Assembly (NCBI RefSeq): GCF_041154505.1
Contig: NZ_AP028672.1
Location: 3,388,501-3,452,500 of the forward strand
Source of the DNA: Acidovorax sp. A79
Lineage (GTDB): Bacteria; Pseudomonadota; Gammaproteobacteria; Burkholderiales; Burkholderiaceae_C
Direction of reading: 5' to 3'
DNA: 64,000 nucleotides
Part shown: positions 1,771 through 58,866 of the stretch, piece after piece
Numbering within the stretch: the stretch's first letter is position 1
Layout: every line of letters starts with the position of its first letter
Made by a program: the position numbers and the translations under genes
The notes under the pieces: generated by a model
Seen by the model: the letters and a program-made list of their open reading frames with translations, nothing else
What the model was told of the DNA's origin: nothing
The model's database searches: none

Positions 1771-1818
1771 TATAAAAACAATAGCTGTTAGCGCAATACA
1801 GATAAGCGCAGGAGCCCA
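1771..1818 (+). repeat. Repeat A copy 1 (dispersed palindromic element)
   Basis: The copy starts directly after the mrdA stop codon. It has an AT-rich lead, the TAGCTG box, and two GCGC half-sites around a short loop, followed by AGGAGCC. It belongs to the family whose best core reads AGCGCTTGATGGACAAGCGC. Its position suggests a transcript end or an mRNA 3' structure for mrdA. Confidence 0.7.
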
Positions 1819-1917
1819 ATCCGGCATCGAATCGCGGTGCCGGCCATTCTTGAAATGAACCCGCTGCCTGCGCCTGCGCCTGGGCGCTGCCCGATGCCGC
1901 GCCGGGCCGTGCCGCCC

Positions 1918-2808
1918 TCAGGCCGCCGCCGCCCGCGCTGGCGGTGGCTGAAGCTGGCTGAACACCAGCGCCGCCACGATCAGCGCCGCGCCGCCCAGGC
2001 CCGCCCATCCCAGCCGCTCGCCGAGCAGGGCCCAGGCGGTGAGCGCGGCGAATACCGGCTCCAGCCCGAACACGATGGCGCTGCGCATGGCGTCCACCCG
2101 CTGCTGGCCCCAGGCCTGCAGCGTGACCACCACCACGCTGGCCAGCAGGCCCAGGTACAGCAGCGCCACCCAGGCATCGGCGGGCAACTGCGCGGCGGTG
2201 TGCAGCCAGCCCATGCCGCCGCCCTGGCCCAGCAGCATGAACGTGGAAGCCAGCGCCATGACGGTCGCCTGCGCGGCCGCCATGCGCGTGGCCCGCGGCG
2301 GGCTTGCCGCCGTGCGGCGCGCGCACTCCTCCAGCGCCAGGATGTAGATGGCGTAGAACACCGTGCTCGCCAGCGTCAGCGTATCGCCCAGGTTCCAGGG
2401 CTCGTTCTCGTGGAACATCAGCGCCATGCCCGTGCAGGCCAGGGCGCACGCCGCCCACAGCGGCCAGCCGTAGCGGCGCCCCAGCGCCGCCATCGCAATC
2501 AATGGCACCACCAGCACATTGAGCCCGGTCACGAAGGCATTGCGGTTGCTGCTGGTGCGCGCCAGCCCCTCGATCTGCAGCCAGAACGCCAGGAACAGCA
2601 GGACCCCCAGCGCGCAGCCCCACCGCCGCTCGTGGCGCCGCATGCCCCACCACAGCGGGGCCAGCACCACCAGGGCGATCACGAACCGCAGCCAGATGAT
2701 CTGCAGCGCATCGAGGTGCGCGGACAACAGCTTCATGGCGGGGAAGGTGGTGCCCCACACCACGGTCACCACCAGCAGGGCAATCAGGCCCAGACGTTCG
2801 GGTTTCAT
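1918..2808 (-). CDS. EamA/DMT-family transporter
   Basis: Probable inner-membrane exporter of the drug/metabolite transporter superfamily, 296 residues, with the ten-helix, two-EamA-repeat hydrophobicity pattern. The first repeat opens with TVVWGTTFPAMKLL and the second includes FGLEPVFAALTAWALLGE, the typical EamA signature near the end of the second half. The ATG at 2808 is chosen because a TTTTGGAG ribosome site lies 5-6 bases upstream; the longer reading frame to 2853 has no such site. The substrate cannot be inferred; relatives export amino acids or metabolites. It stands alone, convergent with mrdA, with repeat A copy 1 between the two stop codons. Confidence 0.88.
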   Translation of the reverse strand: MKPERLGLIALLVVTVVWGTTFPAMKLLSAHLDALQIIWLRFVIALVVLAPLWWGMRRHERRWGCALGVLLFLAFWLQIEGLARTSSNRNAFVTGLNVLVVPLIAMAALGRRYGWPLWAACALACTGMALMFHENEPWNLGDTLTLASTVFYAIYILALEECARRTAASPPRATRMAAAQATVMALASTFMLLGQGGGMGWLHTAAQLPADAWVALLYLGLLASVVVVTLQAWGQQRVDAMRSAIVFGLEPVFAALTAWALLGERLGWAGLGGAALIVAALVFSQLQPPPARAAAA

Positions 2809-2958
2809 AGGCTCCAAAACAAGAAAGGGCTGGTCGGTTCCCCGGCCAGCCACTTGCAGAAGATTTCCTCGCAGCGCCTGCGCACGACCTGCTGCCGTCG
2901 CACTGGCGCGGCCTCAGCGAGGTAGCCGCGGAACTGGCTCTGCCAGGCCACCGGTGGC

Positions 2959-3021
2959 GTCCCCCTCCCTTGGCGCGCAGCGCGTAGAGAGAGGGGTGAA
3001 GGCGCGCAGCGCCTCAGGGGG
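2959..3021 (-). repeat. Repeat B copy 1
   Basis: Reverse-orientation copy of the second dispersed family. Read on the minus strand it runs CCCCCTGAGGCGCTGCGCGC and then a C/T-rich and a GGGGGAC segment. It directly abuts the stop codon of the porin gene, as do most copies of this family, so it would form the 3' end of that mRNA. Confidence 0.65.
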
Positions 3022-3023
3022 TG

Positions 3024-4319
3024 TCAATTAAAAAGATAGCGTGCCTGCAGGTTCAGGCGCAGCATCTCGCCCTGCTGGCCGTCGAACGTCGTGCGGCGGC
3101 CGCCGATCAGCTCGCCGCCCAGCTCCACGTTCTTGATGGGCAGGTAGTACATGCCGGCATGCCATTGGTACAGCTTGTGGTTGCCTTCGGCGCCGTAGGC
3201 GTCCACGTAGGCGTCGCCCAGCTTGTGGCGCGAGCGGACCATGCCCAGCGACACGGTGCCGCGCAGCTTCTCGCTGAACACGTTGGACAGGCCCAGCACC
3301 ACGCCGTGCGACTTGTCCAGGCGCACGGTGCCGCCGTCCAGCACGGGGTAGTTGGTGCCCACCAGGTAGGCGCCGTCGCCGTCGCCGTCCAGGCGCGTGT
3401 ACTGCGCCATCAGCGTGGTGGTGCCGGTGATCTTGTAGCCCGCGCCCAGGCCGAAGCCGGTGCCGCGCTTGCCGATGCCGTCCACGCGCTGCTCGTGCGA
3501 GAGCAGGCGGGCGTTGATGTTGCCCCAGTCGAAGGCCTTGTCCACGCGGGCCACGAAGTTCAGGCTCTTGGCGCCGTCGGTGGGCTCTTCCACCGCGAAC
3601 TGGAACTTGGCCAGGTCCGGGTTGTTGTAGGTGTAGCGCACCTGGGCCGGGCGGCGGAAGGTGGCGCCGGGCGGGCCGTTGAAGTCCACGGTCTCGGGCA
3701 GGTTGTCCACGTCCATGAAGGTCGACCAGGTCTGGCCGATCAGCCAGCCGGCGTACTCGCCGTAGGCGTGGCGCAGGCGCAGGCGGTTGCGGTTGCACTC
3801 GGCACCGCAGTAGGCGTAGAAGTCGGCCTCGATCTTGGTGTTGAAGGTGCCGATAGAGGTGGGCGTGGAGGTCTCGAAGCCGAAGCGCGAGGTCTGCGCC
3901 GTCAGGCTGCTCTTGCCGTGGCGGCTGTCGCCCAGGGGCTGCTCCATCAGGTTGGTGAAGGTGTCGCCGGGCGCCGTGCCCTTGAAGTCCTTGACCATGT
4001 TGGCCTCGGCAAAGCCGTACACGCGGATCGAGGTCTCGCTGCCCGGCAGGCGGAAGCTGCCCGGAATGTCGCCCAGCACCACGGCGTCCTTCTGCTTGAG
4101 TTCCACGGCCTCGATGCGGTCGTTCCAGGCCGATGCCGACGCGGCGGGCGCGGCAGGCGCCTGGGCCTGCTGGGCCTTGAGCTGGTTGAGCTCGGCGCGC
4201 AGGGCCTTGAGCTCGTTGCGCATCTCTTCGAAGTCCTTGGCGGACTGCGCGAACGCGGCGGGGGGCAGGCTGCACAGGCCGGCGGCCAGCAGGGCGAGGA
4301 ACGTGGGGTTCAGTTTCAT
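3024..4319 (-). CDS. DcaP-like outer-membrane porin
   Basis: Predicted outer-membrane channel of 431 residues. It has a Sec signal peptide (MKLNPTFLALLAAG, cleavage after AFAQ), then a short coiled coil (residues about 27-50, rich in E, L and K heptads) and the YGFAEANM entry to a beta barrel, the plan of DcaP-family trimeric porins, which carry a periplasmic N-terminal coiled coil. The ATG at 4319 has GGAG at a good distance. It follows the ABC ATPase gene by 46 bases on the same strand, so it is probably the last gene of that operon and supplies the outer-membrane step for the same solute. The chain ends RYLFN rather than in a terminal Phe; the stop lies at the edge of repeat B copy 1, which may have altered the end. 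Confidence 0.85.
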   Translation of the reverse strand: MKLNPTFLALLAAGLCSLPPAAFAQSAKDFEEMRNELKALRAELNQLKAQQAQAPAAPAASASAWNDRIEAVELKQKDAVVLGDIPGSFRLPGSETSIRVYGFAEANMVKDFKGTAPGDTFTNLMEQPLGDSRHGKSSLTAQTSRFGFETSTPTSIGTFNTKIEADFYAYCGAECNRNRLRLRHAYGEYAGWLIGQTWSTFMDVDNLPETVDFNGPPGATFRRPAQVRYTYNNPDLAKFQFAVEEPTDGAKSLNFVARVDKAFDWGNINARLLSHEQRVDGIGKRGTGFGLGAGYKITGTTTLMAQYTRLDGDGDGAYLVGTNYPVLDGGTVRLDKSHGVVLGLSNVFSEKLRGTVSLGMVRSRHKLGDAYVDAYGAEGNHKLYQWHAGMYYLPIKNVELGGELIGGRRTTFDGQQGEMLRLNLQARYLFN

Positions 4320-4365
4320 GGTCACTCCGGTAGGGGCTGGTAATGGCATTGCATGGGCCTGGATC

Positions 4366-5108
<743 letters not shown>

Positions 5109-5112
<4 letters not shown>

Positions 5113-5891
5113 TGGTTGCGGCCTTCCACGTCGAAGCGGTATTCCACCGCGTTCGAGATCTGCGTGACCAGGGTGGTCAGCAGCAGGTAGGTGATGGCCA
5201 CGGTGGACAGCGTGGCAATGGGCTGGAACGTGGCGGACTGGATGCGGTTGCCCACGTTGGTCAGCTCCACCACGCCAATGGCGTAGGCCAGCGACGAGTC
5301 CTTGAGCAGCGCCACGAAGTTGCTCACCAGCGGCGGCAGTGATATCTTGAAGGCCTGTGGAAACACCACGTCCAGGAACACATGCATGCGGCCCAGGCCC
5401 AGGGCCTTGGCGGCCTCGGTCTGGCCGCGCGGCACGGCCAGCAGCCCGGCGCGGATGGCCTCGGCGTTGTAGGCGCCCACGTTCAGGCCCAGCGCCAGCA
5501 CGGCGGCCGCGAAGTCGGGCAGGTTCAGGCCCGGCACCAGCACCGGCAGCGCGAAGTACACGAACAGGATCTGCACCAGCAGCGGCGTGCCGCGGATGAC
5601 CCAGATGTAGAAGCTGGCCACCCAGCGCACGGCGGCAAAGCGCGCGGTGCGGGCGAGCGCGGCGGCGGTTCCCAGCACCAGCCCGACGCTGCCGCTGATC
5701 AGCGTGAGCCACAGGGTGGTGCGCGCGCCGTCGGAGAACGCCTGGGCGTTGGGGCCGATGGGCTCGGGCAGGAAGGACAGCAGCTTGCCGAGCAGTGCCA
5801 GCACCAGCACCATCAGGATGACGGCCGAGACGAGCGTGGCGTTGCTGCGCTGCTGGCGGCTCCAGCGCTGCGGCCAAAAGGCGGTGAGCAT
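5109..5891 (-). CDS. Polar amino acid ABC transporter, permease
   Basis: Inner-membrane subunit of the PAAT importer, 260 residues. It contains the HisMQ-type pattern: an N-terminal hydrophobic segment, the RGTPLLVQI motif typical of this family, and the EAA-type loop [25 protein letters not shown] that contacts the ATPase. The ATG at 5891 is preceded by AGGGG; a longer frame to 5975 would overlap the upstream gene and lacks support. Only one permease gene is present, so the membrane domain is presumably a homodimer. It lies 34 bases after the binding-protein gene. Confidence 0.95.
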
Positions 5892-5925
5892 GAAAAAGAC
5901 CCCTGTGACTACAAGCGGGTCGTGC

Positions 5926-6690: not shown

Positions 6691-6967
6691 GGGATGGGTC
6701 CTGTCGGGGGTATTTCAGGTACAAAAAATCCGGCATGCGGGTAGCAGGCCGGAGGCTGGTGGATCGGATGCACAGGCATCGCGAAACGCGAAGCCTGCCG
6801 TCATCAAGTAGTAACGATTATAAATATGCGAATTTTTTCCTTGGGCCTGCGGACAACCCTCAAAGCCCCGTTGTGTGCCAATTCACAACAGGTTTAGAGC
6901 GGTGTCTCCAACCGGACGCAGGCGCTACGGCTCCGTCTACAGGGCGAGGTCGGCGCTACCGGTGCGA
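6691..6967. other. Intergenic region upstream of the ABC importer operon
   Basis: No gene is supported here. The only notable composition is an AT-rich patch at 6811-6840. It contains a perfect minus-strand TATAAT at 6817-6822, but the hexamer 17 bases upstream of it (CCCAAG) is a poor -35. It would give a leader of about 120 bases for the binding-protein gene. Confidence 0.35.
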
Positions 6968-7055
6968 GCCAGACCAGTGCCCCCGCGCAAGGGCCGCCCC
7001 GCCGCGCTGGGGGCGTCCCCCTTCAGGGGGAAGGCGCCGAAGGCGACTCAGGGGG
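6968..7055 (-). repeat. Repeat B copy 2
   Basis: Reverse-orientation copy that ends exactly at the tauE-like stop codon. On the minus strand it begins CCCCCTGAGTCGCCTTCGGC, followed by a CCCCCTGAAGGGGG hairpin and a GC-rich tail (GGGGCGGCCC). The pattern stop codon, then CCCCCTGAG, is shared with the other copies. Confidence 0.65.
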
Positions 7056-7814
7056 TTACCGAAGAAACGCGTCGTACCCCGTCTTGAGGATCAGCGTGCT
7101 CACCACCACGATGAAGATGCCGCGCACGAAACCCGTGCCGTGCTTGAGCGCCAGGTGCGTGCCCAGCAGGCTGCCCACGACGTTGGCCACGGCCAGCGTC
7201 ACCGCGAAGTGCCACCAGACGTGGCCCTTGGCGGCAAACAGCACGATGGCGGCGACATTGGTGGCGCAATTGAGCAGCTTGGCCGAGGCCGAGGCATTGA
7301 GAAAGTCGTAGCCGAGCAGCCGCACGAACAGGAAGACGAAGAAGCTGCCGGTGCCCGGGCCGAAGAACCCGTCGTAGAAACCGATCAGCACGCCGATCAG
7401 GCAGGCCGCCAGCACTTCGGCGCGGCCCGCGAAGCGCGGCGTATGGTGCCGCCCCAGTTCCTTCTTGGCCAGCGTGTAGGCCAGCACGCCCAGCAGCACC
7501 AGGGGCAGCAGCTTGCGCAGGAAGTCGGCCGACATCACCGTCACCGCCCAGGCGCCGGCGAACGAGCCGGCGAAACCGGCCGCCGCGGCCGGCAGCATCG
7601 CCGGCCAGCGGATCTGCACGCGGCGGCTGTACTGCCAGGTGGCCATGGCCGTGCCCCACACCGAGGCGGCCTTGTTGGTGCCCAGCAGCGTGGCCGGTGG
7701 CGCCCCCGGAAAAGCCGCGAACAGCGCCGGCACCATCACCAGCCCGCCGCCACCCACGATGGCGTCCACGAAGCCCGCGAGCAGCGAGGCCAGGGTAATA
7801 AAAATCCATTCCAT
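7056..7814 (-). CDS. TauE/SafE-family sulfite/organosulfonate exporter-like permease
   Basis: Integral membrane protein of 252 residues with 7-8 predicted helices and the TauE/SafE hallmarks: LAGFVDAIVGGGGLVMVPALF near the N-terminus, a GTNKAASVWGTAMA motif, and the repeat-half motif GFYDGFFGPGTGSF. Family members export sulfite, sulfoacetate or related anions, or serve as uptake routes; the substrate here is unknown. The start codon lacks a Shine-Dalgarno sequence. Instead the hexamer GAAAAT lies exactly six bases upstream of the ATG, the arrangement expected of a leaderless mRNA. It is a single gene, divergent from the ammonium transporter. Confidence 0.88.
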   Translation of the reverse strand: MEWIFITLASLLAGFVDAIVGGGGLVMVPALFAAFPGAPPATLLGTNKAASVWGTAMATWQYSRRVQIRWPAMLPAAAAGFAGSFAGAWAVTVMSADFLRKLLPLVLLGVLAYTLAKKELGRHHTPRFAGRAEVLAACLIGVLIGFYDGFFGPGTGSFFVFLFVRLLGYDFLNASASAKLLNCATNVAAIVLFAAKGHVWWHFAVTLAVANVVGSLLGTHLALKHGTGFVRGIFIVVVSTLILKTGYDAFLR

Positions 7815-7820
7815 CGCAGT

Positions 7821-7826
7821 ATTTTC
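7821..7826 (-). promoter_or_regulatory. Putative -10 box of a leaderless tauE-like mRNA
   Basis: The minus-strand hexamer GAAAAT is followed by six bases (ACTGCG) and the ATG, so transcription would start at the A of the start codon. No convincing -35 is seen. This is one of six such cases in the window. Confidence 0.4.
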
Positions 7827-7902
7827 GCACCCAGCCTGCTATGGATTTAGGAACAGATACAGAGACCAGCGCACCGGGCCCGGCGGCGAACGGGCAAGAA
7901 AA

Positions 7903-7925
7903 AGGCGCTGGGATCGCCAGCGCCT
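7903..7925 (-). terminator. Hairpin with minus-strand T-run in the amt upstream region
   Basis: A perfect 9-bp stem (AGGCGCTGG / CCAGCGCCT) with a 5-base loop. On the minus strand it is followed by five Ts, as in an intrinsic terminator. No minus-strand gene precedes it, so it may block antisense transcription, or it may be a decayed palindromic repeat. Confidence 0.4.
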
Positions 7926-8059: not shown

Positions 8060-8066
8060 TTGGGGG

Positions 8067-9543: not shown

Positions 9544-9655
9544 CGCTCTCCCGAGGCCCTGCGGGCCTTCCCCCGCTCTCGCACCGCCGCGCAATGCGGG
9601 CCGGGGGGCGCAGCCAGCGCGGCGGCCCGCGCCTGGGCCGCACCGGTTTCATTCG
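9544..9655 (+). repeat. Repeat B copy 3 (degenerate)
   Basis: It begins a few bases after the amt stop. It shows the palindrome GAGGCCCTGCGGGCCTTC, the CCCCC segment, a GGGGGGCGCAGCCAGCGCGG stretch and the GGGCCGC tail found in other copies, with several substitutions. Confidence 0.5.
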
Positions 9656-12214: not shown

Positions 12215-12273
12215 ATTGCTACTAAATATGTAGCTTGAAGCGCTTGATGCCAAAGCGCTGGAGGCCTGTTTGA
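12215..12273 (+). repeat. Repeat A copy 2
   Basis: Full-length copy: TTGCTACT, AT-rich spacer, TAGCT box, then GCGCTTGATGCCAAAGCGC and GGAGGCC. It sits between the divergent starts of the GMC oxidoreductase and the Mce operon. Confidence 0.8.
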
Positions 12274-12409
12274 TATTAATTTCACGCGGCCCCGGCCGGC
12301 CTGTGCTTGGCGGCCCGTGCGGGCGGGCGTAAATCCTACGCGCCGCCTGTGCGTGGCTCCGCTACCATGCACCCTCTCTTTCCCTCTTGGCGGCCGCGCC
12401 GCCCAGTCC

Positions 12410-13537: not shown

Positions 13538-13548
13538 AGATGAGGTGG

Positions 13549-13720
13549 CTTCCCCCTGAGCGGCTTCGCCGCTTCCCCCTTCTCCCGAACTGCTGCGCAG
13601 CTCGGGAAGGGGGACGCCACCAGCACCCGCATGTGAAGCCCCCCCTGAGCCGCTTCGCGTCTTCCCCCCAAGGGGGGACGCCACCCGTGGCCTGGCAAAG
13701 CCAGTTCCACGGTGGCACGG
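13549..13720 (+). repeat. Repeat B copy 4 (two units in tandem)
   Basis: Two successive units lie between the permease and ATPase genes. Unit one has GAGCGGCTTCGCCGCTTCCC, then a hairpin (CTCCCGA...TCGGGAAGGGGG), then ACGCCACCAGC. Unit two repeats CCCCCTGAGCCGCTTCGCG, CCCCCCAAGGGGGG, ACGCCACC, and adds a GGCAAAGCC palindrome. Confidence 0.75.
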
Positions 13721-15591: not shown

Positions 15592-16299
15592 ATGAAAAGT
15601 ACTATTAAAAACATAGCTGCCGGCGCCTTCCCGAAAAGCGCTGGCGGCCTGCTGGGCGGCATGGTTCTGGTGGTGGTGATCGGCCTGGCCGGCTGCTCGG
15701 CCCTGCCCAGCCCGCCCTCGCGCCCCGTGCTGTACGACTTTGGCCCCGGCCCGGTGGCCCCGGCGCCGGCCGACCGCCGGGCACCGCTGCAGCCCCTGGC
15801 CCTGGCCGACGTGGAGGCGCCCGGCCTGCCCGAGGGCAGCAATGCCGTGCTCTACCGCCTGGGCTATGCCGATGCCCAGCAGCTGCGCCCCTACAGCCAG
15901 GCCCGCTGGAGCCAGCCCCCCGCCCAGCTGCTGCAGCAGCGGCTGCGCGAGCAGCTGGGCCAGCGGCGCGCCATCCTCAAGGCCGACGACGGTGCGGCCC
16001 AGGCGCGCGACGCCAGCCAGGGCGGCCGGCTGCCCCCGGTGCTGCGCGTGGAGCTGGAGGAATTCAGCCACCTCTTCGCCAGCCCCACCGAAAGCGCTGG
16101 CGTGGTGCGCCTGCGTGCCACGGTGGTGGACCTGACGCTGGCGGGCGAGTCGCTGCGCGGCCAGCGTGTGTTCATCGTGCGCACCCCGGCGCCCAGCGCC
16201 GACGCGGCCGGCGGCGTGAAGGCCCTGGCGGAGGCCTCCACACAGGTCGCCCAGGAGCTGGCGGACTGGCTGGAACAGGTGACGCGGCGCACGAACTGA
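15592..16299 (+). CDS. PqiC-like ABC transporter auxiliary lipoprotein (ABC_trans_aux)
   Basis: Predicted outer-membrane lipoprotein, 235 residues, with lipobox LAGC (Cys 37) and a mature domain of the ABC_trans_aux (DUF330) family, recognised by its position in Mce operons and by segments such as RLGYADAQQLRPYSQARWSQPP and LRATVVDLTLAGESLRGQRVF. Family members dock Mce assemblies to the outer membrane. GAGGAG lies five bases before the ATG. The first 20 codons, upstream of the hydrophobic signal core, coincide with a copy of repeat A, so the start and n-region of the signal peptide appear to be repeat-derived. It is the last gene of the operon; no mlaC is present. Confidence 0.85.
   Translation: MKSTIKNIAAGAFPKSAGGLLGGMVLVVVIGLAGCSALPSPPSRPVLYDFGPGPVAPAPADRRAPLQPLALADVEAPGLPEGSNAVLYRLGYADAQQLRPYSQARWSQPPAQLLQQRLREQLGQRRAILKADDGAAQARDASQGGRLPPVLRVELEEFSHLFASPTESAGVVRLRATVVDLTLAGESLRGQRVFIVRTPAPSADAAGGVKALAEASTQVAQELADWLEQVTRRTN
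15596..15655 (+). repeat. Repeat A copy 3, inside the lipoprotein coding sequence
   Basis: ACTATTAAAAACATAGCTG, then GGCGCC...AGCGCTGGCGGCC: the AT-rich lead, TAGCTG box and palindromic arms of the family, here read as codons 2-22 of the lipoprotein. Confidence 0.7.
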
Positions 16300-16421: not shown

Positions 16422-17798
16422 TCAGGACCGCGGGGGCGGCGGGGCCGTGCCCGGCTCGATCCCCGTCACCACACGCGCATACCGTGCAAAGCTCCAGTAC
16501 GCCCAGGCCCAGTCGAGCAGCACCACCAGCCGGTTGCGGAAGCCGATCAGGAAATACACGTGCGCAAACAGCCAGAACAGCCAGGCAAAGTAGCCCGAGA
16601 ACCGCACCGGCCCCGCGGGCGAGGTGAGGTCCACCACGGCGGAGTTGCGGCCGATGGTGGCGAGGTTGCCGTAGTCGCGGTAGCGAAACGCTTGCGTGGC
16701 CTGGCCGCGCAGGCGGCGCAGGATGTTGGCGGCCGCCGCGCGGCCCATCTGCTTGGCGCCGGGCGAGACGCCGGGCACCGGCCGGGGAGGCTGGCCGGGC
16801 GCGTGGCTCTGGGCGGCGGCCAGGTCGCCGATCACGCTGATCTCCGGGTGGCCGGGCAGCGTGAGGTCGGGCGCCACGACCACGCGGCCCGCGCGGTCGA
16901 TCGTGCAGCCGGTGGCCTCGGCCAGATGGCGGCCCAGCGGGGAGGCCGCCACCCCGGCCGCCCAGATGATGCATTTGCTCTTGATTTGATAGCTGCCTGC
17001 GCTTGATGAATCAGCGTCAGGGGGCGATTCGACCCTCAGGCCGTCATCGTCGATGGTGGTGACGCGGGCTTGCAGGCGCACTTCCACGCCCAGTTTTTCC
17101 AGCTGCTCCCTGGCGCGCTGGCTCAGTGCTTCCGGCATGGCCTGCAGCACCCGCGTGCCGCCTTCGAGCAGGATGATCCTGGCGCTGGCCGGGTCGATGT
17201 GGCGGAATTCGCCGGGCAGTGTGTGGCGCGCGATCTCGGCCAGGGTGCCCGCCATCTCCACGCCGGTGGGCCCGGCGCCCACGACCACGAAGTTGAGCCA
17301 GTCGGCGCGGCGGACGGGGTCGGGCTCCTTCTCGGCGGCCTCGAAGGCCAGCAGGATGCGGCGGCGGATCTCGAAGGCATCGTCCAGCGTCTTGAGCCCG
17401 GGCGCGTGCGTGGCCCATGCATCCTGGCCGAAGTAGCTGTGCGTGGCGCCGGCCGCGACGACGAGGTGGTCGTACGGCAGGGGGGCGGAGGGATGGGGGC
17501 CGTCCTTCAGATACACGGCGCGCGCCGCCACGTCGATGCGCGTGACCTCCCCGAGCAAGGTGGTGGCGTTGGGCTGCTGGCGGAACAGGTGGCGGATGGG
17601 GGCCGCGATGGCGGGGGCCGACAGACCGGCGGTGGCCACCTGGTACAGCAGCGGCTGGAAGAGGTGGTGGTTGGTCTTGTCGACCAGGGTGATGTCCACG
17701 GCCGCGCCGCGCAGCGCCCGGGCGGCTTCCAGGCCGCCGAAGCCGCAGCCGATGATGACGATGCGGGGGCGGGACGAAGGGGTGGAGGCTGGGGTCAT
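16422..17798 (-). CDS. NAD(P)/FAD-dependent oxidoreductase, type II NADH dehydrogenase-like
   Basis: Peripheral membrane flavoprotein of 458 residues that probably passes electrons from NADH to quinone. The FAD motif is IVIIGCGFGGLEAARAL near residue 13, NDH-2 marks follow (KTNHHLFQPLLYQVATAGLS), then the second dinucleotide fold FVVVGAGPTGVEMAGTL, and the FAD-closing ISVIGDLAAA. The C-terminus is amphipathic (YFAWLFWLFAHVYFLIGFRNR), as in membrane-bound NDH-2. About 15 residues (DADSSSAGSYQIKSK) before the conserved IIWAAGV are encoded by a copy of repeat A. There is no Shine-Dalgarno; AATAAT lies exactly six bases before the ATG. Confidence 0.92.
   Translation of the reverse strand: MTPASTPSSRPRIVIIGCGFGGLEAARALRGAAVDITLVDKTNHHLFQPLLYQVATAGLSAPAIAAPIRHLFRQQPNATTLLGEVTRIDVAARAVYLKDGPHPSAPLPYDHLVVAAGATHSYFGQDAWATHAPGLKTLDDAFEIRRRILLAFEAAEKEPDPVRRADWLNFVVVGAGPTGVEMAGTLAEIARHTLPGEFRHIDPASARIILLEGGTRVLQAMPEALSQRAREQLEKLGVEVRLQARVTTIDDDGLRVESPPDADSSSAGSYQIKSKCIIWAAGVAASPLGRHLAEATGCTIDRAGRVVVAPDLTLPGHPEISVIGDLAAAQSHAPGQPPRPVPGVSPGAKQMGRAAAANILRRLRGQATQAFRYRDYGNLATIGRNSAVVDLTSPAGPVRFSGYFAWLFWLFAHVYFLIGFRNRLVVLLDWAWAYWSFARYARVVTGIEPGTAPPPPRS
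16974..17031 (+). repeat. Repeat A copy 4, in-frame inside the NDH-2-like gene
   Basis: TTGCTCTTGATTTGATAGCT, then GCGCTTGATGAATCAGCG and GGGGC, reading on the plus strand through the minus-strand gene. It keeps the open frame and falls in a loop between two conserved strands. Confidence 0.75.
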
Positions 17799-22581: not shown

Positions 22582-23109
22582 ATGGCTCAACTCGAATGGT
22601 CCGACGCCCTGGCCCTGGACCTGGCCCTGATGGACGACACCCACCGTGAGTTCGTCGACCTGCTGGCCGCCGTCGATGGCGCGGACGACGCGCGCCTGCT
22701 GGCTGCCTGGCAGGCGCTGGTGGAGCACACCGACCACCATTTCGCGCAGGAGGACGCCTGGATGGCCTCCACGCGCTTCGCATCGGGCAACTGCCACAGC
22801 ATGCAGCACCGGGTGGTGCTGCAGGTGATGCGTGAAGGCACCGCGCGTGCGCAGCAGGGCGACCTCGCGGTGCTGCGCGTGATGGCCAGCGAACTGGCCC
22901 TGTGGTTTCCGCAGCATGCGCAGAGCATGGATGCCGCGCTGGCCCTGCACTTGCGCCGCGTGGGATTCGACCCCGTCTCGGGCGTGGTGCACGCCCCCGG
23001 GGCGCTGCCGGGCGAGCTGATCCACGGATGCGGCGGTGCGACCTGCTCGGAGGACGCGGGGGCTCCATCGCCCGCCGCCGCCTGCGCACCGCAGGAAGCG
23101 GTGGCCTGA
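22582..23109 (+). CDS. Bacteriohemerythrin-like protein
   Basis: Cytoplasmic di-iron oxygen-binding protein of 175 residues. Likely iron ligands are His21 in LMDDTHREF, His53 and Glu57 in DHHFAQEDAWM, His72 and His76 in NCHSMQHRV, and the His/Asp of FPQHAQSMDAAL, matching the hemerythrin four-helix pattern. The last 45 residues are an unusual tail with three cysteines (HGCGGATC, AAAC) not seen in typical bacteriohemerythrins, perhaps for redox or metal sensing. The ATG at 22582 begins the conserved N-terminal LEWSDAL. An FNR-like box upstream fits a role in oxygen or nitric oxide physiology. Confidence 0.88.
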   Translation: MAQLEWSDALALDLALMDDTHREFVDLLAAVDGADDARLLAAWQALVEHTDHHFAQEDAWMASTRFASGNCHSMQHRVVLQVMREGTARAQQGDLAVLRVMASELALWFPQHAQSMDAALALHLRRVGFDPVSGVVHAPGALPGELIHGCGGATCSEDAGAPSPAAACAPQEAVA

Positions 23110-23170
23110 CCTTTCTCCCGCCTGCCGGTGCGCCAGGCCCGGCCAGCCGCAATGGCCGGGATGGGCAATG

Positions 23171-23230
23171 CGCTTCTGTTTTGATAGCTGCCAGCGCTTG
23201 CCAATCAAGCGTTGGCGGCTATTTTCATCA
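23171..23230 (+). repeat. Repeat A copy 5, overlapping a minus-strand gene end
   Basis: GCTTCTGTTTTGATAGCTG, then CCAGCGCTTGCCAATCAAGC and GGCGGCTATTTT. The minus-strand hypothetical gene terminates inside it, so its last eight codons are repeat-derived. Confidence 0.75.
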
Positions 23231-30295: not shown

Positions 30296-31225
30296 ATGGC
30301 CGCCCCGCTTCAGAGCGTGAAGCCTTTTTGGCATCTGGCGCTTGCTGGTAAGGCGCTGGTAGCTATCGGTTTGATAGCGTTCGGGGTCCAGCCTCATGCG
30401 GCCGACTATCCCGGGCCGCTGTTCGACGCCCACCTGCACTACAACGAAGAGGCGTGGGACGGCAAGAACGGCCCGCACCCGCCGACCGACGTGCTGGGCC
30501 GCATGCAGAAAAGCGGCGTGCGGGCCATCGTGGCCAACTCCCGGCCCAACACCGGCTCGCTCACGCTGGCCGGCCTGCGCGAGACGCGCGAGGCCGGCGT
30601 CGCCGTGGTGCCCTTCGTGCGGCTGTACCGCAGCCGCGCCGACTACACCGGCTGGTTCGCCGACGAGAGCATCTACGCCATGGTGCAGGCCGAGCTGGCG
30701 CGCGGCACGGCGGCCGGGCCGTACCGGGGCATCGGCGAGTTCCACCTGTACGACAGCGCCAATGCCGACGGCCCGGTGGCCAGGAAGCTCATGGCGCTGG
30801 CCGAGGAGCGCGACCTGGTGGTGCTGGCCCATGTGGACGACGTGGCCATCGACAAGCTTATGGCGCACACTCCCACGCAAGGGCGCAAGCTGCGCCTGAT
30901 CTGGGCGCACACGGGCATCGGCGGCGCGCCGGCCGAGCGGGTGGACGCGCTGCTCGCGCGCTACCCCGGCCTCGTGGGCGAACTCTCGTACCGGCCGGGC
31001 CTGGTGTGTGACGACGACCAGCTGTGCCCCGCGTGGCGCGCGCTGCTGCTCAAGTACCCCACGCGTTTTGTCGTGGGCTCCGACACCTGGGTGAACCAGC
31101 GCTGGCAGCACTATGAAAGCCTCATGCAGGGCTACCGCACCTGGCTGGGCGGCCTGCCCGCCGATGTGGCGCGCAAGGTCGCGTGGGACAACGGCGCCGG
31201 CCTGTTCGGCGTGGCGCGGCCCTGA
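30296..31225 (+). CDS. Amidohydrolase-family (TIM-barrel) protein, exported
   Basis: Predicted periplasmic metal-dependent hydrolase, 309 residues. After an N-terminal hydrophobic segment come FDAHLHYN (the HxH metal motif), a His in [19 protein letters not shown] and the Asp of FVVGSDTW, the order seen in amidohydrolase_2/TatD-like barrels. The hydrophobic leader [17 protein letters not shown] coincides with a reverse copy of repeat A, so the export signal appears to come from the repeat. GAGGGGCGG is upstream of the ATG. The substrate is unknown; it is co-oriented with the dienelactone hydrolase gene. Confidence 0.85.
30321..30379 (-). repeat. Repeat A copy 7, inside the amidohydrolase signal sequence
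   Basis: On the minus strand: CTATCAAACCGATAGCTACC, then AGCGCCTTACCAGCAAGCGC and CAGATGCCAAAAAGG. It is read in frame as residues 9-28 of the amidohydrolase. Confidence 0.75.
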
Positions 31226-33116: not shown

Positions 33117-34931
<1,815 letters not shown>

Positions 34932-36571: not shown

Positions 36572-36638
36572 TTTGGAATGATTTCAGCCGCTGGCGCACG
36601 ACTGCCGTGCGCTAACAGCTATTGATTGAGTAGCAATT
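36572..36638 (-). repeat. Repeat A copy 9 (diverged)
   Basis: Minus strand: GAATTGCTACTCAATCAATA, AGCTGTTAGCGCACGG, loop, GTGCGCCAGCGGCTG. It ends at the GTG start codon of the next gene, so it forms that gene's entire leader. Confidence 0.65.
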
Positions 36639-38571: not shown

Positions 38572-38715
38572 TCCCCCTGAGGCGCTGCCGCGCCTTCACC
38601 CCTTCTCCCGAATGGCTGCGCCATTCGGGAAGGGGCGCGCAGCCAGTGCAGCGGGGCGGCCCTTGCACGGCTGCTCTGGCATGGGCCGCACGCTTTCAAG
38701 AGCGGCGGGCAATGT
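38572..38715 (+). repeat. Repeat B copy 7 (long form)
   Basis: It begins eight bases after the dacA-like stop: CCCCCTGAGGCGCTGCCGCG, CTTCTCCCGAATGGCTGCGC, a matching CCATTCGGGAAGGGG arm, then GCGCGCAGCCAGTGCAGCGG and a GGGCCGC tail. It contains three nested hairpins and would be the 3' end of the dacA mRNA. Confidence 0.8.
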
Positions 38716-42176: not shown

Positions 42177-42179
42177 AGT

Positions 42180-42240
42180 CAAATTGGCTGCTGGCGCTTG
42201 TCTATAAAGCGCTAGCAGCTATTAAAACAGTAGCAAAATT
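42180..42240 (-). repeat. Repeat A copy 10
   Basis: Minus strand: AATTTTGCTACTGTTTTAAT, AGCTGCTAGCGCTTTATAGA, CAAGCGCCAGCAGCC. This is one of the best copies, with almost complete palindromy across the whole element. It lies between the fusA terminator and the tuf leader. Confidence 0.85.
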
Positions 42241-51527: not shown

Positions 51528-51532
51528 AGTGC

Positions 51533-51655
51533 GTCGCCCTGAGCGGCGTTGCCGCTTCTCCCTTCTCTCTGCGCGCTGCGCGCTCCGGGAGGGGGGACGA
51601 CGCCAGCGCGGCGGGGCAGCCCTTGTGCGGCGTTCGCTGGCCGGGGCCGCGCGCG
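51533..51655 (+). repeat. Repeat B copy 8
   Basis: It starts just after the cytochrome c' stop codon: CCCTGAGCGGCGTTGCCGCT, CTCTGCGCGCTGCGCGCTCC, GGGAGGGGGGACGACGCCAG, CGCGGCGGGGCAGCCCTTG, ending GGGGCCGC. This is the full long form of the family. Confidence 0.8.
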
Positions 51656-51667
51656 CTCAATGCGCAT

Positions 51668-51716
51668 GCTATTAAAGTGGTAGCTGTTTGCGCTGAATCC
51701 ATAAGCGACAAAGGCC
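51668..51716 (+). repeat. Repeat A copy 12 (right arm merged with terminator)
   Basis: TGCTATTAAAGTGGTAGCTG, TTTGCGCTGAATCCATAAGC, GACAAAGGCC. The right end forms the left arm of the terminator hairpin that follows, so a repeat appears to have been co-opted as a terminator. Confidence 0.7.
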
Positions 51717-51742
51717 GATTTCGCATGAAATCGGCCTTTTGC
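51710..51742. terminator. Bidirectional terminator between cytochrome c' and tlpA-like genes
   Basis: AAAGGCCGATTTC, GCAT loop, GAAATCGGCCTTT: a perfect 13-bp stem with a T-run on the plus strand and A-run before it, and the reverse on the minus strand. It serves both convergent genes. Confidence 0.9.
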
Positions 51743-52421: not shown

Positions 52422-52427
52422 CGGCCC

Positions 52428-54699: not shown

Positions 54700-54937
54700 A
54701 CTGGGCCTGCATGCCCGCGCGTCGGCCAAGCTCACCAAGCTGGCCGGCAGCTTTCCCTGCGATGTCTTCATGAGCCGTGGCGACCGGCGCATCAACGCCA
54801 AGAGCATCATGGGCGTGATGATGCTGGCCGCCGGCATGGGCACCGAGGTGGAGATCGAAACCAGCGGCGAGCGCGAACAGGAGGCCATGGACGGGCTCCT
54901 GGCCCTGATTGCCGACAAGTTTGGCGAGGGTGAATGA
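54668..54937 (+). CDS. ptsH: Phosphocarrier protein HPr
   Basis: Cytosolic phosphocarrier of the PTS, 89 residues. His15 in NKLGLHARASAKL receives the phosphate from EI, and Ser46 in INAKSIMGVMMLA is the position phosphorylated by HPr kinase in bacteria that have one (betaproteobacteria commonly do). The start ATG at 54668 lies inside the EIIA gene, and its stop overlaps the EI start (ATGA). Confidence 0.95.
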   Translation: MIKTRTTINNKLGLHARASAKLTKLAGSFPCDVFMSRGDRRINAKSIMGVMMLAAGMGTEVEIETSGEREQEAMDGLLALIADKFGEGE

Positions 54938-56691
54938 CCTTCTCCGTCCACGGTCTCGCAGTCGCCCGCGGCATCGCCATCGGCCGTGCGGTGCTGGTGG
55001 CGTCCAGCCGGGTGGACGTGGCGCACTATTTCGTCAAGCCCGAGCAGATCGAGGGCGAGATCGAGCGGGTGCGCAACGGGCGCAATGCCGTGGTCGAGGA
55101 ACTGCAGCGCCTGCAGGTGGAGATGCCCGCCGATGCGCCGCATGAACTGACCGCGCTGCTCGACGTGCACCTGATGCTGCTGCAGGACGAGGCCCTCACG
55201 GGCGGGGTCAAGCACTGGATCACCGAGCGCCTGTACAACGCCGAGTGGGCGCTCACCACCCAGCTCGAAGTCATCGCGCGCCAGTTCGACGAGATGGAGG
55301 ACGAATACCTGCGCGAGCGCAAGGCCGACCTGGAACAGGTGGTCGAGCGCATCCTGCGCTACATGAAGGGCGTGGCCAGCCCCGTGGCGCCGCCCGCCAG
55401 CAGCCCGCGCCGCAAGACCCAGCAGGACCTGCTGCTCGACGACACGGTGGACGTGCCCCTGGTGCTGGTCGCGCACGACCTCTCGCCCGCCGACATGCTG
55501 CAGTTCAAGCAGAGCGTGTTCGCGGGCTTCGTGACCGACGTGGGCGGCAAGACCAGCCACACCGCCATCGTGGCGCGCAGCATGGACATTCCGGCCGTGG
55601 TGGGCGCGCGCGCGGCCAGCCAGCTGGTGCGCCAGGACGACTGGGTCATCATCGACGGCGATGCGGGCGTGGTCATCGTGGACCCGTCGCCCATCATCCT
55701 GGCCGAGTATGGCTTTCGCCAGCGCCAGGTGGAGTTGGAACGCGAGCGCCTGGCCCGGCTGCGCCACACCCCGGCCATCACGCTCGACGGCCACAAGATC
55801 GAGCTTCTGGCCAACATCGAGCAACCGGGCGACGCCGCCGCCGCCGTGCGCGCCGGCGCCGTGGGCGTGGGCCTGTTCCGCAGCGAGTTCCTGTTCATGG
55901 GCAAGAGCGGCAACCTGCCCGGCGAGGACGAGCAGTACCGCGCCTACTGCGAAGCCATCGACGGCATGCAGGGCCTGCCCGTCACCATCCGCACCATCGA
56001 CGTGGGCGCCGACAAGCCGCTGGACCACAAGAGCCACAAGGACAGCTACCTGAACCCGGCCCTGGGCCTGCGCGCCATCCGCTGGAGCCTGGCCGACCCG
56101 GCCATGTTCCGCACCCAGCTGCGCGCCGTGCTGCGCGCGGCGGCGCATGGCAAGGTCAACCTGCTGTTCCCGATGCTGGCGCACACGCACGAGATCCAGC
56201 AGACCATCGCGCAGGTGGACCTGGCCCGCGCCGAGCTGGATGCGCGCGGCGTGCCCTACGGCCCGGTGCAGCTGGGCGCGATGATCGAGGTGCCTGCGGC
56301 GGCGCTCATGGTGCGCACCTTCCTGCGGTATTTCGATTTCCTCTCCATCGGCACCAACGACCTGATCCAGTACACGCTGGCCATCGACCGCGCGGACGAG
56401 GCGGTGGCGCACCTGTACGACCCGCTGCACCCCGCCGTGCTGCGCCTGGTGGGCGATGTGATCGCCGAGGGCGAACGCCAGGGCAAGAGCGTCTGCGTGT
56501 GCGGCGAAACGGCCGGCGACGTGACCATGACGCGCCTGCTGCTGGGCCTGGGCCTGCGCAGCTTTTCCATGCACCCCGCGCAGATCCTGGCCATCAAGCA
56601 GGAGGTGCTGCGCGCCGACACGCGCAAGCTCGCGCCGTGGGCGCGCCAGGTGCTGGAGGGGGATGAACCCGCGGCCGCGCTGGCGCCGTAG
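54934..56691 (+). CDS. ptsI: Phosphoenolpyruvate-protein phosphotransferase (enzyme I)
   Basis: Transfers phosphate from PEP to HPr; 585 residues, complete. The active His209 is in TDVGGKTSHTAIVARS, PEP binding is in GVGLFRSEFLFMG and the C-terminal dimer region has FLSIGTNDLIQYTLAIDR and the active-site VCVCGETAGD. N-terminal HPr-binding helices precede the His domain. It lacks the GAF domain of PtsP and is a standard EI. A repeat A copy lies just after the stop. The EIIA-HPr-EI trio without permease is a regulatory PTS likely linked to HPr kinase. Confidence 0.96.
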   Translation: MTFSVHGLAVARGIAIGRAVLVASSRVDVAHYFVKPEQIEGEIERVRNGRNAVVEELQRLQVEMPADAPHELTALLDVHLMLLQDEALTGGVKHWITERLYNAEWALTTQLEVIARQFDEMEDEYLRERKADLEQVVERILRYMKGVASPVAPPASSPRRKTQQDLLLDDTVDVPLVLVAHDLSPADMLQFKQSVFAGFVTDVGGKTSHTAIVARSMDIPAVVGARAASQLVRQDDWVIIDGDAGVVIVDPSPIILAEYGFRQRQVELERERLARLRHTPAITLDGHKIELLANIEQPGDAAAAVRAGAVGVGLFRSEFLFMGKSGNLPGEDEQYRAYCEAIDGMQGLPVTIRTIDVGADKPLDHKSHKDSYLNPALGLRAIRWSLADPAMFRTQLRAVLRAAAHGKVNLLFPMLAHTHEIQQTIAQVDLARAELDARGVPYGPVQLGAMIEVPAAALMVRTFLRYFDFLSIGTNDLIQYTLAIDRADEAVAHLYDPLHPAVLRLVGDVIAEGERQGKSVCVCGETAGDVTMTRLLLGLGLRSFSMHPAQILAIKQEVLRADTRKLAPWARQVLEGDEPAAALAP

Positions 56692-56703
56692 GGTGGTGCT
56701 GAA

Positions 56704-56762
56704 ATGCTCCTTAATTGATAGCTTTCTGCGCTTGATGGACCGGCGCCAGGGGCCGGTTTCGC
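56704..56762 (+). repeat. Repeat A copy 13
   Basis: ATGCTCCTTAATTGATAGCT, TTCTGCGCTTGATGGACCGG, CGCCAGGGGCCGGTTTCG. It follows the EI stop by 12 bases. Confidence 0.75.
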
Positions 56763-56867
56763 CAGATTTTTTTGAAAAGTGAAGCGCGGCGTCCGCCAGC
56801 CTGCAAGGCCGGCGGATGCACTTCTCCCCGCCCGTTCTGATGGCCTGCGCTGCATCCAGAAAAACCC

Positions 56868-58121
56868 ATGCCTCCCATGCAGCTTGCCCACGCAGACCCG
56901 TCCCTCATCGACTCGCCCCAGGCCCTGCGGCGGCTTCTTGCGACCCTGGGCCTCGTCGTGCTGGGGAACAGCAGCATGTACGTGGTGTCGGTGGTGCTTC
57001 CGGCGGTGCAGAGCGAGTTCGGAATCGGCCGCGCCAGCGCCTCGCTGCCCTATACCCTGATGATGGTCTGCCTGGGCCTGGGCGGGCTATGGACAGGGCG
57101 GCTGGCGGACCGCCACGGCCTGATGCCCGTGCTCTGGCTGGGTGCCCTGGCGGTGTTTGGCGGCTTCATGGGGGCGAGCCTGTCGGGCAGCATCTGGGCT
57201 TTCGGCTTGGCGCACGCGGTGATGGGGTTCATTGGCGGCTCCGCGACGTTCGCGCCCTTGCTGGCCGATACGGCGCTTTGGTGGAATCGCCGGCGGGGCA
57301 TCGCGGTGGCGGTGTGCGCCAGCGGCAACTACGTGGCGGGCGCGGTCTGGCCGCCCATCGTGCAATACGGCGTCGACTCCATCGGCTGGCGGCCTACCTA
57401 CATGGTGCTGGGCAGCATCTGCGGCGTGGGTATGCTCGCGCTGTCCCTGCGCATGCGCCAGCGCCCTCCCGCGATTCCGGCGTCTGCGGCAGCGGGCGCG
57501 AACCGGGCGGCGCCGGACCGTGCCCGCCCTTTCGGCCTGGCTCCGAACCACGCGATGGCGCTGCTGTGCCTGGCAGGCATCGCGTGCTGCGTCGCCATGG
57601 CCATGCCGCAGGTCCACATCGTGGCCTACTGCACGGACCTGGGCTTCGGCGCCGCCCAGGGCGCCCAGATGCTGTCGCTCATGCTGGCCTGCGGCATCGT
57701 GAGCCGCCTGGTCTTCGGGCTGATCTGCGACCGCATCGGCGGCATCCGCACCCTGTTGCTGGGATCGGCGCTGCAGGGCATCGCCCTCGTGCTTTTCCTT
57801 CCCTACGACGGCCTGGTGCCGCTGTACGTCATCTCGGGGCTATTCGGGCTGTTCCAGGGCGGCATCGTGCCCACCTACGCCATCATCGTGCGCGAGTACT
57901 TCCCGCCCGGCCAGGCGAGCGTGCGGGTGGGGGGCGTCATCATGGCCACGCTCGTCGGCATGGCGCTGGGCGGCTGGCTTTCCGGCTGGATATTCGACGC
58001 CACGGGAAGCTACCACGCCGCCTTTCTCAACGGCATCGGCTGGAACCTGCTGAACCTCTCCATCACCGGCTGGCTCTACCTGCGCGTGCGCCGGGAGCGC
58101 GCGGACCCGCGCATGCCGTGA
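56868..58121 (+). CDS. MFS transporter, possibly monocarboxylate-type
   Basis: Twelve-helix permease, 417 residues, with the motif A region GLGGLWTGRLADRHGLMPVLW, the second-half start NHAMALLCLAGIACCVAMAMPQVHIV and GLICDRIGGIRTLLLGS. The overall arrangement resembles bacterial OFA/MCT-like permeases of organic acids, but this is only a family-level call. An alternative start two codons later exists. No ribosome site is clear. It stands alone, with repeat A copies on both sides. Confidence 0.88.
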   Translation: MPPMQLAHADPSLIDSPQALRRLLATLGLVVLGNSSMYVVSVVLPAVQSEFGIGRASASLPYTLMMVCLGLGGLWTGRLADRHGLMPVLWLGALAVFGGFMGASLSGSIWAFGLAHAVMGFIGGSATFAPLLADTALWWNRRRGIAVAVCASGNYVAGAVWPPIVQYGVDSIGWRPTYMVLGSICGVGMLALSLRMRQRPPAIPASAAAGANRAAPDRARPFGLAPNHAMALLCLAGIACCVAMAMPQVHIVAYCTDLGFGAAQGAQMLSLMLACGIVSRLVFGLICDRIGGIRTLLLGSALQGIALVLFLPYDGLVPLYVISGLFGLFQGGIVPTYAIIVREYFPPGQASVRVGGVIMATLVGMALGGWLSGWIFDATGSYHAAFLNGIGWNLLNLSITGWLYLRVRRERADPRMP

Positions 58122-58122
58122 A

Positions 58123-58177
58123 TTGCTCCTGAATAGATAGCACTCCGCGCTTGCCGGACAAGCACGGGAGGCCCGCT
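58123..58177 (+). repeat. Repeat A copy 14
   Basis: TTGCTCCTGAATAGATAGCA, CTCCGCGCTTGCCGGACAAG, CACGGGAGGCCCGC. It lies between the convergent MFS and methyltransferase genes. Confidence 0.75.
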
Positions 58178-58187
58178 GGATGCAGAT

Positions 58188-58793
58188 TCACACGGGCCGC
58201 CGCAGGGCCAGCACGCTCCAGCGCACGTCCGGCCGCCCCTGGGCGTCGTCCCGCGTTCCGCTGTGCGCGGTGGCCAGCCCGTGCCGTGCGCCCAGCGCCG
58301 CCGTTTCCTGCATCGACACGTCGAACATGCGCCGCCCCCGGGGCACGGGGCCATGGCGCAGCGACATCACCACCAGCGCGCCCGGCGCGAGCAGGTCCGC
58401 CACGGCCCGCATGGCGGCGGCGCGTTCCGCGGCGTCCAGATGCATCCACACGGCGGTCAGCAGCACCAGGTCGAACTGGCGGCCCCGCAGGCCGGTGAGC
58501 GCGGGCAGGTGGTCGTCCACCCACTCGATGGGCAGCCCCGCGTGGATGCGCTGCCCCTCCTGCCGCAAGGCCGCCGTGGGCTCGGCGGCCACCACATGGT
58601 GGCCCGCGCGCACCAGCGCGGCAGCGTCCCGTCCCGAGCCCGCGCCGATGTCGAGCACCCGGCTGGGCGCGCGCGGGAACAGGTGCAGCGTGCTGCGGTG
58701 CACATCGGCGAACGCGATGCTTTCATACTGCGCCGCCAGCGCGGCGGCGTGCGTGCCATAGCCCGCCGTGCCGGGGATGGGGAGGGTGTCCAT
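58188..58793 (-). CDS. Class I SAM-dependent methyltransferase
   Basis: Cytosolic methyltransferase of 201 residues. Motif I is VLDIGAGSGRDAAAL, motif II/acidic loop is VVAAEPTAALRQEGQ, and the post-motif region is FDLVLLTAVWMHLDAAERAAAMRAV, the Methyltransf_11/25 pattern. The substrate is not evident. The ATG at 58793 starts MDTLPIPGTAGYGTHAA. It follows the EamA gene on the same strand by 75 bases, separated by repeat A copy 15; the two may be co-transcribed. Confidence 0.9.
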   Translation of the reverse strand: MDTLPIPGTAGYGTHAAALAAQYESIAFADVHRSTLHLFPRAPSRVLDIGAGSGRDAAALVRAGHHVVAAEPTAALRQEGQRIHAGLPIEWVDDHLPALTGLRGRQFDLVLLTAVWMHLDAAERAAAMRAVADLLAPGALVVMSLRHGPVPRGRRMFDVSMQETAALGARHGLATAHSGTRDDAQGRPDVRWSVLALRRPV

Positions 58794-58807
58794 GCGAGGA
58801 TCGGGTT

Positions 58808-58866
58808 TGCTATCGGATAAATAGCTATCAGCGCTTGATGGGCAAGCGCCTGGGCCATTTTGATTG
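58808..58866 (+). repeat. Repeat A copy 15
   Basis: TTTGCTATCGGATAAATAGC, TATCAGCGCTTGATGGGCAA, GCGCCTGGGCCATTTTG: the closest copy in this window to my consensus. It fills the gap between the EamA gene and the methyltransferase gene. Confidence 0.9.

Follow-up and report, generated by a model that had tools for sequence, protein, structure and literature searches.

An ancient, position-locked family of 59-nt palindromic elements in Acidovorax sp. A79 and its relatives

Why does a bacterial genome carry the same short palindrome every few kilobases, and what keeps the copies there? The question is raised by a stretch of 64,000 nucleotides (nt) of Acidovorax sp. A79 (contig NZ_AP028672.1, positions 3,388,501 to 3,452,500; hereafter the window), in which a sequence-only reading had noticed about 15 copies of a dispersed palindromic element and had taken them for a mobile family. 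Dispersed bacterial palindromes are usually accounted for as slowly turning-over products of transposition. We compared A79 (5.87 Mb in two contigs) with related genomes, designated below by G-numbers, with genus labels given as g-numbers. The element forms a real, large and ancient repeat family, locked in position, which has the shape of repetitive extragenic palindromic (REP) sequences without their defining link to REP-associated tyrosine transposases (RAYTs). Its sites are fixed across genera, its interiors are concerted within genomes and whole sets of copies are missing from some species, a combination that points to selection via a shared partner. The explanation we prefer, to which we give a probability slightly below one half (about 0.47), is an ancient insertion family now held in place as recognition sites of a presumed trans-acting factor that varies by lineage.

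Design and number of the element

Ten of the 15 window copies were aligned without gaps and gave an element of 59 nt, with the iterated consensus tTGCTAttaAtTtnATAGCTgCcaGCGCTTgacngacAAGCGCtaGaGGCcnaTTtnac. The outer frame of the element consists of TTGCTAT, an AT-rich spacer and ATAGCT on one side and GGCC followed by ATTT on the other, and in A79 the dyad-symmetric interior is GCGCTTG-N5-CAAGCGC. Over 78 A79 copies, A17, G18, C19 and most of the GCGC bases are near-invariant and the spacer and loop columns are variable; columns 15-18 are A/G, T, A and G at 82/17, 92, 100 and 99%. A position-weight profile, seeded with the ten aligned copies and then iterated, scored the 15 window copies at 44-78 bits (its training set included these copies), so that each of the 15 coordinates first noticed is confirmed as a 59-nt element. 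A covariance model built from 10 of the 15 copies recovered all 15 at E <= 1, the lowest being the copy at 1767 (21.4 bits). One extra weak profile match in the window, at 7798 (25 bits), is probably not a real copy and was kept in the 78-copy tally of gene context given below.

In 604 kb of A79, 78 copies reached 18 bits or more, whereas one equally long Markov-1 shuffle had none, and the shuffle count stayed at zero at each threshold from 14 to 24 bits. The element is thus more frequent than in shuffled sequence, and about 760 copies are extrapolated for the A79 genome. A strict core pattern matched genome-wide 283 times on the forward and 290 times on the reverse strand, against 0 and 4 for the reversed pattern; some double counting across strands is expected here because the pattern is palindromic. 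The proposal that the element is a major genome component is borne out by these counts, whereas the proposed density of nearly one copy per 4 kb describes the window (one per 4.3 kb) and not the 604-kb sample (one per 7.7 kb). The second A79 contig of 166 kb, which is probably a plasmid, has copies too; its stretch from 60 to 80 kb had no megablast match in PLSDB. With one 59-nt copy as the query, an insensitive search, the plasmid collections gave one partial match, in a plasmid of Comamonas odontotermitis, and the phage collections gave none. No strand polarity was found between the halves of the chromosomal contig (37+/30- vs 44+/35-, p = 1; 146 chromosomal matches among the best 150).

The window copies lie in both orientations (11 on the plus and 4 on the minus strand), as had been noticed, and are as follows.

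1767..1825, plus strand: overlaps the mrdA (PBP2) stop codon; 55 bits; same site and orientation in G262
12216..12274, plus strand: divergent gap between GMC-type oxidoreductase and MlaE-type permease genes; 63 bits; also in G262 and, weakly, in G072 (28 bits) and G226 (about 25 bits)
15599..15657, plus strand: at the start of, or just before, an ABC_trans_aux lipoprotein gene; 52 bits; site kept in G262, G072, G004 and G226
16975..17033, plus strand: inside the coding sequence of an NAD(P)/FAD oxidoreductase (16422-17798, minus strand); 64 bits; likewise in G262
23170..23228, plus strand: between a gene ending at 23109 and predicted genes downstream of creD; 68 bits; G262 counterpart at 31 bits
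27036..27094, plus strand: between creB and creC; 57 bits; site kept in G262
30322..30380, minus strand: after a YghX-like hydrolase gene; 55 bits; site kept in G262, G072, G004 and G187
33119..33177, minus strand: 3' end of hemB; 64 bits; at least 24 bits in 17 of 21 syntenic genomes, in one orientation
36578..36636, minus strand: between two genes without a family match (the second site); 53 bits; at least 25 bits in 15 of 20 syntenic genomes, in one orientation
42178..42236, minus strand: between fusA and tuf; 78 bits; in 16 of 29 fusA loci scored
49620..49678, plus strand: between convergent redoxin and GNAT genes; 50 bits; site kept in G262, G072, G004 and G226
51666..51724, plus strand: convergent gap beside a ResA-like gene; 59 bits; site kept in G262, G283 and G226
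56704..56762, plus strand: after a gene for a PEP-utilising enzyme (ptsI-like); 61 bits; directly after the same gene in G262, G072, G283 and G004
58123..58181, plus strand: between convergent MFS and methyltransferase genes; 44 bits; flanking genes not found in the G262 stretch
58807..58865, plus strand: upstream of a methyltransferase gene; 60 bits; flanking gene not found in the G262 stretch

The element had been described as lying mostly between genes, which holds for 13 of the 15 copies; the exceptions are the copy at 16975, within a coding gene, and that at 15599, at a gene start. The hemB copy takes in the final codons of the gene together with its stop codon (33163-33177, read directly). 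The in-gene copy at 16975-17033 is in frame and encodes a SYQIKSKC-like stretch of the oxidoreductase. It does not line up as a clean insert: some homologues are 7-9 residues shorter there and others have similar residues (20 of 120 aligned).

Conserved sites, interior dialects and losses

In G085, which belongs to the same species (about 99.2% identity over most of the stretch), all 23 compared A79 copies are present. Three further G085 copies provide no test, one (C1 159243) because its segment has no alignable counterpart in the A79 DNA and two because they fall outside the compared A79 stretch. In G262, of the same genus, 12 of the 13 comparable window sites are retained, the fusA-tuf site being without a copy; this comparison excludes 58123 and 58807, whose flanking genes the G262 stretch lacks. 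The hemB, second and fusA-tuf sites are common to 15-17 genomes with 10-12 genus labels, and the orientation is always identical. The 16th genome at the second site is G117, at 18 bits, and the 17th at the fusA-tuf site is G015, at 21.5 bits; G190, outside the 29 fusA loci scored, has a 61-bit copy between fusA and tuf. In the same G190 region (C1:1042551-1044651), fusA was found in two overlapping frames (residues 1-553 and 549-700), which is a frameshift or an assembly error. Sites are also genuinely lacking in some element-rich genomes, examples being G187 at hemB, G023 at the second site and G121, G243, G135, G117, G003 and G128 at fusA-tuf. Over 40 regions, orthologous gaps gave 824 same-orientation, 2 opposite and 543 absent cases, counted as ordered pairs that are dominated by three sites and not independent. 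Between G015 and G230, congeners of another genus, 73 syntenic gaps comprised 18 with a shared copy (2 opposite), 4 and 2 with a private copy and 49 empty ones. At position 137711 of the G015 stretch, where the element lies opposite ways round in these two genomes, ATCAAAT/ATTTGAT stands at both ends, suggesting that the orientation may be able to flip through a change of the end boxes.

The outer flanks of the copies retain a memory of their site (A79-G262: 0.70 vs 0.41, p = 0.0001; G015-G230: 0.50 vs 0.40, p = 0.0088), which argues for descent in place rather than re-insertion. Together with the same sites and the single orientation across genera, these site-specific flanks indicate that the copies were inherited in place. 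Mobility had been taken to imply that positions are not conserved across genera; in fact the sites are kept, in position and orientation, across genera. The hemB gap without an element measures 3-19 nt in five named relatives and 67 nt in Delftia, and at two other sites the gaps are 1-4 nt in Polaromonas JS666 and Hydrogenophaga vs 66-107 nt with the element. These lengths, which hinge on gene-finder ends (some element-bearing gaps are as short as 22 nt), fit insertion or deletion of the whole unit. The filled and empty gaps of G015 and G230 are too diverged for insertion boundaries to be read.

Consensus frames agree between lineages and the interiors differ. The arms are GCGCTTG/CAAGCGC in A79 and AGCTTG/CAAGCT in G287 (5 copies only), G039 and G071 have other arms, and the interior is symmetric in most dialects. 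In both genera, interiors are more alike within a genome than between genomes at the same sites (p = 0.0005, the minimum for 2000 swaps), and the outer flanks have no dialect signal (p = 0.92 and 0.55). This test and that of site memory were based on 12 A79-G262 pairs and on 15 of the 18 gaps shared by G015 and G230, two opposite cases and one two-copy case being left out.

The nearest relatives of one protein encoded in the window come from Acidovorax (98% to Acidovorax sp. sif1233). For the range of the element, a pattern search tuned to the A79 dialect and a model search scoring at most 150 candidates per genome were used. By pattern, 37 of the 299 genomes of the bacterial family had 46-909 matches, eight had 12-30 and the remainder had 10 or fewer. 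Other dialects are undercounted in this way (6 matches in G071 vs at least 100 by model, and 9 in G217 vs at least 121); G039 had at least 128 model matches. In a set of 300 genomes from the order, none outside the bacterial family exceeded 8 pattern matches. At least seven of 80 named hemB loci hold a copy, at least five of them at the hemB site itself. The matches listed include hemB-site copies of Comamonas testosteroni, Polaromonas sp. CG9_12 and metagenome-assembled genomes of Rhodoferax, Giesbergeria and Betaproteobacteria, and none for the hemB loci of Delftia tsuruhatensis, Variovorax, Hydrogenophaga sp. 2FB, Ramlibacter alkalitolerans and Polaromonas JS666.

Whole sets of copies are absent from some genomes. 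G265 had 0 + 0 matches by pattern and none by model among the best 150 candidates, and two genomes with the same label had 136 and 346 pattern matches. G214 and G145 likewise had no model match among the best 150 candidates; the relatives of the three that share their genus labels had 27 to 346. A decayed remnant is still readable at the hemB site of G214, and decayed copies are present at the second site of G128 and G117, both of which have copies elsewhere. That copies are missing from hundreds of sites at once suggests a single common cause. On a fusA tree the rich/poor label needs four changes, with no significant clustering (117 of 500 shuffles were as low). Such natural pairs of close relatives with and without the element make the role of REP-like repeats testable.

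What may hold the copies in place

In the explanation preferred here, the copies would have spread by insertion in the ancestor of this Comamonadaceae branch and would now be retained as DNA sites that a trans-acting factor, probably a dimer, recognises by their sequence. The specificity of the factor would drift by lineage, giving the genome-wide interior dialects, and loss of the factor would let all sites decay. The likeliest roles of the bound sites would be to mark the ends of genes or insulate them, or to organise the nucleoid. Spread by insertion in the past is likely, because only full 59-nt modules are enriched, g16 has genus-specific copies and the 166 kb contig carries copies. The weak covariation described below and the symmetric dialects fit a protein dyad. 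A bolder version, which we regard as doubtful, is that the elements are the DNA half of a new global recognition system of Comamonadaceae with several hundred position-locked sites per genome, a re-specifying and probably dimeric protein (a nucleoid organiser or gene-boundary insulator), dialects and whole-system losses.

Within-species substitution was measured over 21 copies in A79 C1 786957-946956 against G085 C1, a diverged 95% region being left out. High-information columns changed at 5 of 483 positions and low-information columns at 25 of 756 (p = 0.013); with the diverged region included, the counts were 6/529 and 37/828. Constraint on the boxes shows only in comparison with the remainder of the element. 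The background was 145/17,975 in other intergenic DNA and 783/46,551 at third codon positions.

Several points weigh against the recognition-site explanation. The existence of a factor is itself something that we infer. High-information columns do not change more slowly within species than intergenic DNA elsewhere (1.04% vs about 0.8%, p = 0.6). Other reasons could lie behind the loss of copies in element-free species, and the resolution of the fusA tree is too poor for counting losses. Interiors have a slight site memory too (p = 0.034 and 0.023), and in the G262 interior the apex no longer pairs. Finally, stems covary weakly in G015 (whole stem z 2.5, p = 0.012; slid control at most 0.8) and in G039 (21 copies; core pairs p = 0.007, middle pairs p = 0.047, pair 29-39 z 3.0), and our confidence was lowered because of the G039 result.

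REPs turn over by duplicate-and-lose. The elements may be a non-autonomous REP family that was once spread by a RAYT (HUH Y1) and is now old, turning over slowly along with the RAYT; we consider this unlikely. The form agrees, with hundreds of imperfect intergenic palindromes and [A/G]TAG directly before the stem, g16 has genus-specific copies, and conserved families would be compatible with RAYTs described, in a passage of PMC8049555, as single-copy and vertically inherited. A79 itself carries a single RAYT-like gene, which scores 65.9 bits to NF047646 and does not reach the cut-off of 80; no element was found in the 16 kb around it. Y1_Tnp is about equally frequent in rich and poor genomes: it is present in 33 of 37 element-rich genomes, in 14 of 15 genomes with four or fewer model matches and in 31 of 33 of the whole non-rich set, at least six of which carry variant copies. 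It was not found in four element-rich genomes, namely the three g95 genomes examined and G141. Within flanks of about 1.5 kb, the element (E <= 0.01) accompanies 4 of the 16 Y1_Tnp loci taken from rich genomes and none of the 15 others, 4 of 31 in all, which is close to what its density would give. The anticipated RAYT-type transposase flanked by the element therefore did not emerge as a regular arrangement. No close inverted doublets were found in the A79 sample, where all copies are singlets (the nearest window neighbours are 684 nt apart), and the positions last while the sequence drifts. RAYT dependence was rejected because element-free and rich genomes have Y1_Tnp equally often and the element seldom flanks it, and recent mobility because of the 23 of 23 copies in the same-species genome G085. 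Of the initial view of a family resembling REPs or miniature inverted-repeat transposable elements, the REP-like form stands and current mobility does not, given the G085 copies, the sites kept across genera and the lack of RAYT tracking. G015, with the most pattern matches (909), has 20 Y1_Tnp matches, several of them equal-scoring and some in two frames, an IS200-like expansion pattern.

It also seems rather unlikely that each site works on its own as a nucleic-acid hairpin, for example a 3'-end or intercistronic RNA hairpin in stability, processing or termination. The hairpin can form, and the gene context is suggestive: among the 78 A79 copies, 21 are in convergent gaps, 39 in co-directional gaps, just 6 in divergent gaps and 12 within predicted genes, and background gaps of at least 60 nt number 50, 223 and 77, respectively. 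(These counts, like the window-site, orthologous-gap and codon-position results, rest on gene calls from a simple gene finder using GC by codon position.) Co-directional gaps show no orientation bias, however, with 19 sense vs 20 antisense copies. Compensated arms occur in single orthologues, such as those of G004 at hemB and fusA-tuf, and covariation was detected weakly in G015 and G039 as given above. Copy by copy, however, covariation is weak overall in the seven genomes tested, and pairing within a genome barely exceeds the level set by column composition: A79 is borderline (whole stem z 1.6, p = 0.058, with the slid control giving z 1.6 too), G230 has z -0.3, and the smaller sets of G262, G121 and G217 gave no signal. 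A17 is fixed although its supposed partner is mismatched (A.C in 44 of 78 A79 copies). Symmetric dialects are expected of a hairpin as well as of a dimer-bound dyad, and we favour the dyad because most genomes are without copy-by-copy compensation.

Gene conversion, or an enzyme, that replaced the hairpin interiors block by block in fixed copies would account for concerted interiors between fixed flanks, and within a species low-information columns do change faster than other intergenic DNA, with an odds ratio of 4.2 (p = 2e-8), and than third codon positions, with one of 2.0 (p = 0.0025). We find it improbable: the within-species changes are scattered, 0-4 per copy over the 21 copies, with no bursts or block replacement, and for RecA 59 nt at such divergence are a poor substrate. 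A DNA uptake sequence (DUS), or another exchange signal maintained by drive, is the most improbable candidate and was rejected, since enrichment sits in the full 59-nt module, which far exceeds the length of a DUS, and most sub-motifs outside it are unenriched (AGCGCTTG 46 vs 51 expected; ATAGCTG 20 vs 19.5), a few being mildly enriched (TAGCTGCC 14 vs 6.2, GCCATTTT 15 vs 9.1, GGCCATTT 18 vs 13.3).

Comparison with known repeats

An Rfam scan of the window gave a sole match, to RF02837 (anti-hemB, Burkholderia RNA 7) at 34371-34459 on the plus strand (57.3 bits), which adjoins hemB, and no element copy at the gathering score. A scan of four element loci gave two matches at E <= 1, none at the gathering score, and a known Rfam family was rejected because no element copy reaches that score. 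The element resembles RF02837 and BRE in being a betaproteobacterial intergenic repeat; BRE is about 90 bp and GC-rich according to an excerpt of Hot et al. 2011 (PMC3110155). The RF02837 match is possibly related to that repeat, and it is our guess that the two are one family. A second dispersed palindromic repeat in the window is GC-rich and perhaps BRE-like (2926-3019, 6962-7024, 9570-9634, 13548-13712, 34212-34252, 38599-38691 and 51531-51630). Its copy at 38599-38691 occupies the spot where G262 has a 59-nt element, and the fusA-tuf gap of element-free G265 contains a GC-rich repeat-like stretch.

The sequence-only reading knew of no name for the element, and none was found in the open-access literature searched, in which we found no paper with 13-letter pieces of it. 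Two fragments were nevertheless printed in 2017 by Tong et al. (PMC5217627). In section 13 of that paper, GCTTAT(N)5AAGCG of Acidovorax ebreus (114 copies, with 44 in convergent, 4 in divergent and 59 in co-oriented context) and ATAGCT(N)22CAAAAG of Polaromonas naphthalenivorans (125 copies) are potential novel motifs without an assigned role, listed as unrelated pairs. The first coincides in letters and spacing with columns 27-42 of the element and has a similar gene context. In the second, ATAGCT corresponds to columns 15-20 and the remainder fits columns 43-48 in part, a weaker identification. Equating both motifs with the element is our own putative identification from the letters; the full element, positional conservation, dialects and losses are absent from that section.

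With the DUSs of Neisseriaceae, the element shares high copy number and lineage dialects (for the latter, see the part of PMC3630211 on DUS dialects). In contrast, the enrichment of the element is carried by its full 59-nt module. By comparison, a DUS is much shorter than 59 nt. In form the element resembles REPs and REPINs, which are likewise hundreds of dispersed imperfect intergenic palindromes, and the [A/G]TAG before the stem resembles, by letters alone, the GTAG-type tetranucleotide with which sequences in the REP tables of PMC3686654 start. Unlike these repeats, the element neither regularly flanks nor tracks RAYT genes, occurs as singlets, has a long conserved AT-rich 5' arm and keeps its sites across genera as its interior drifts.

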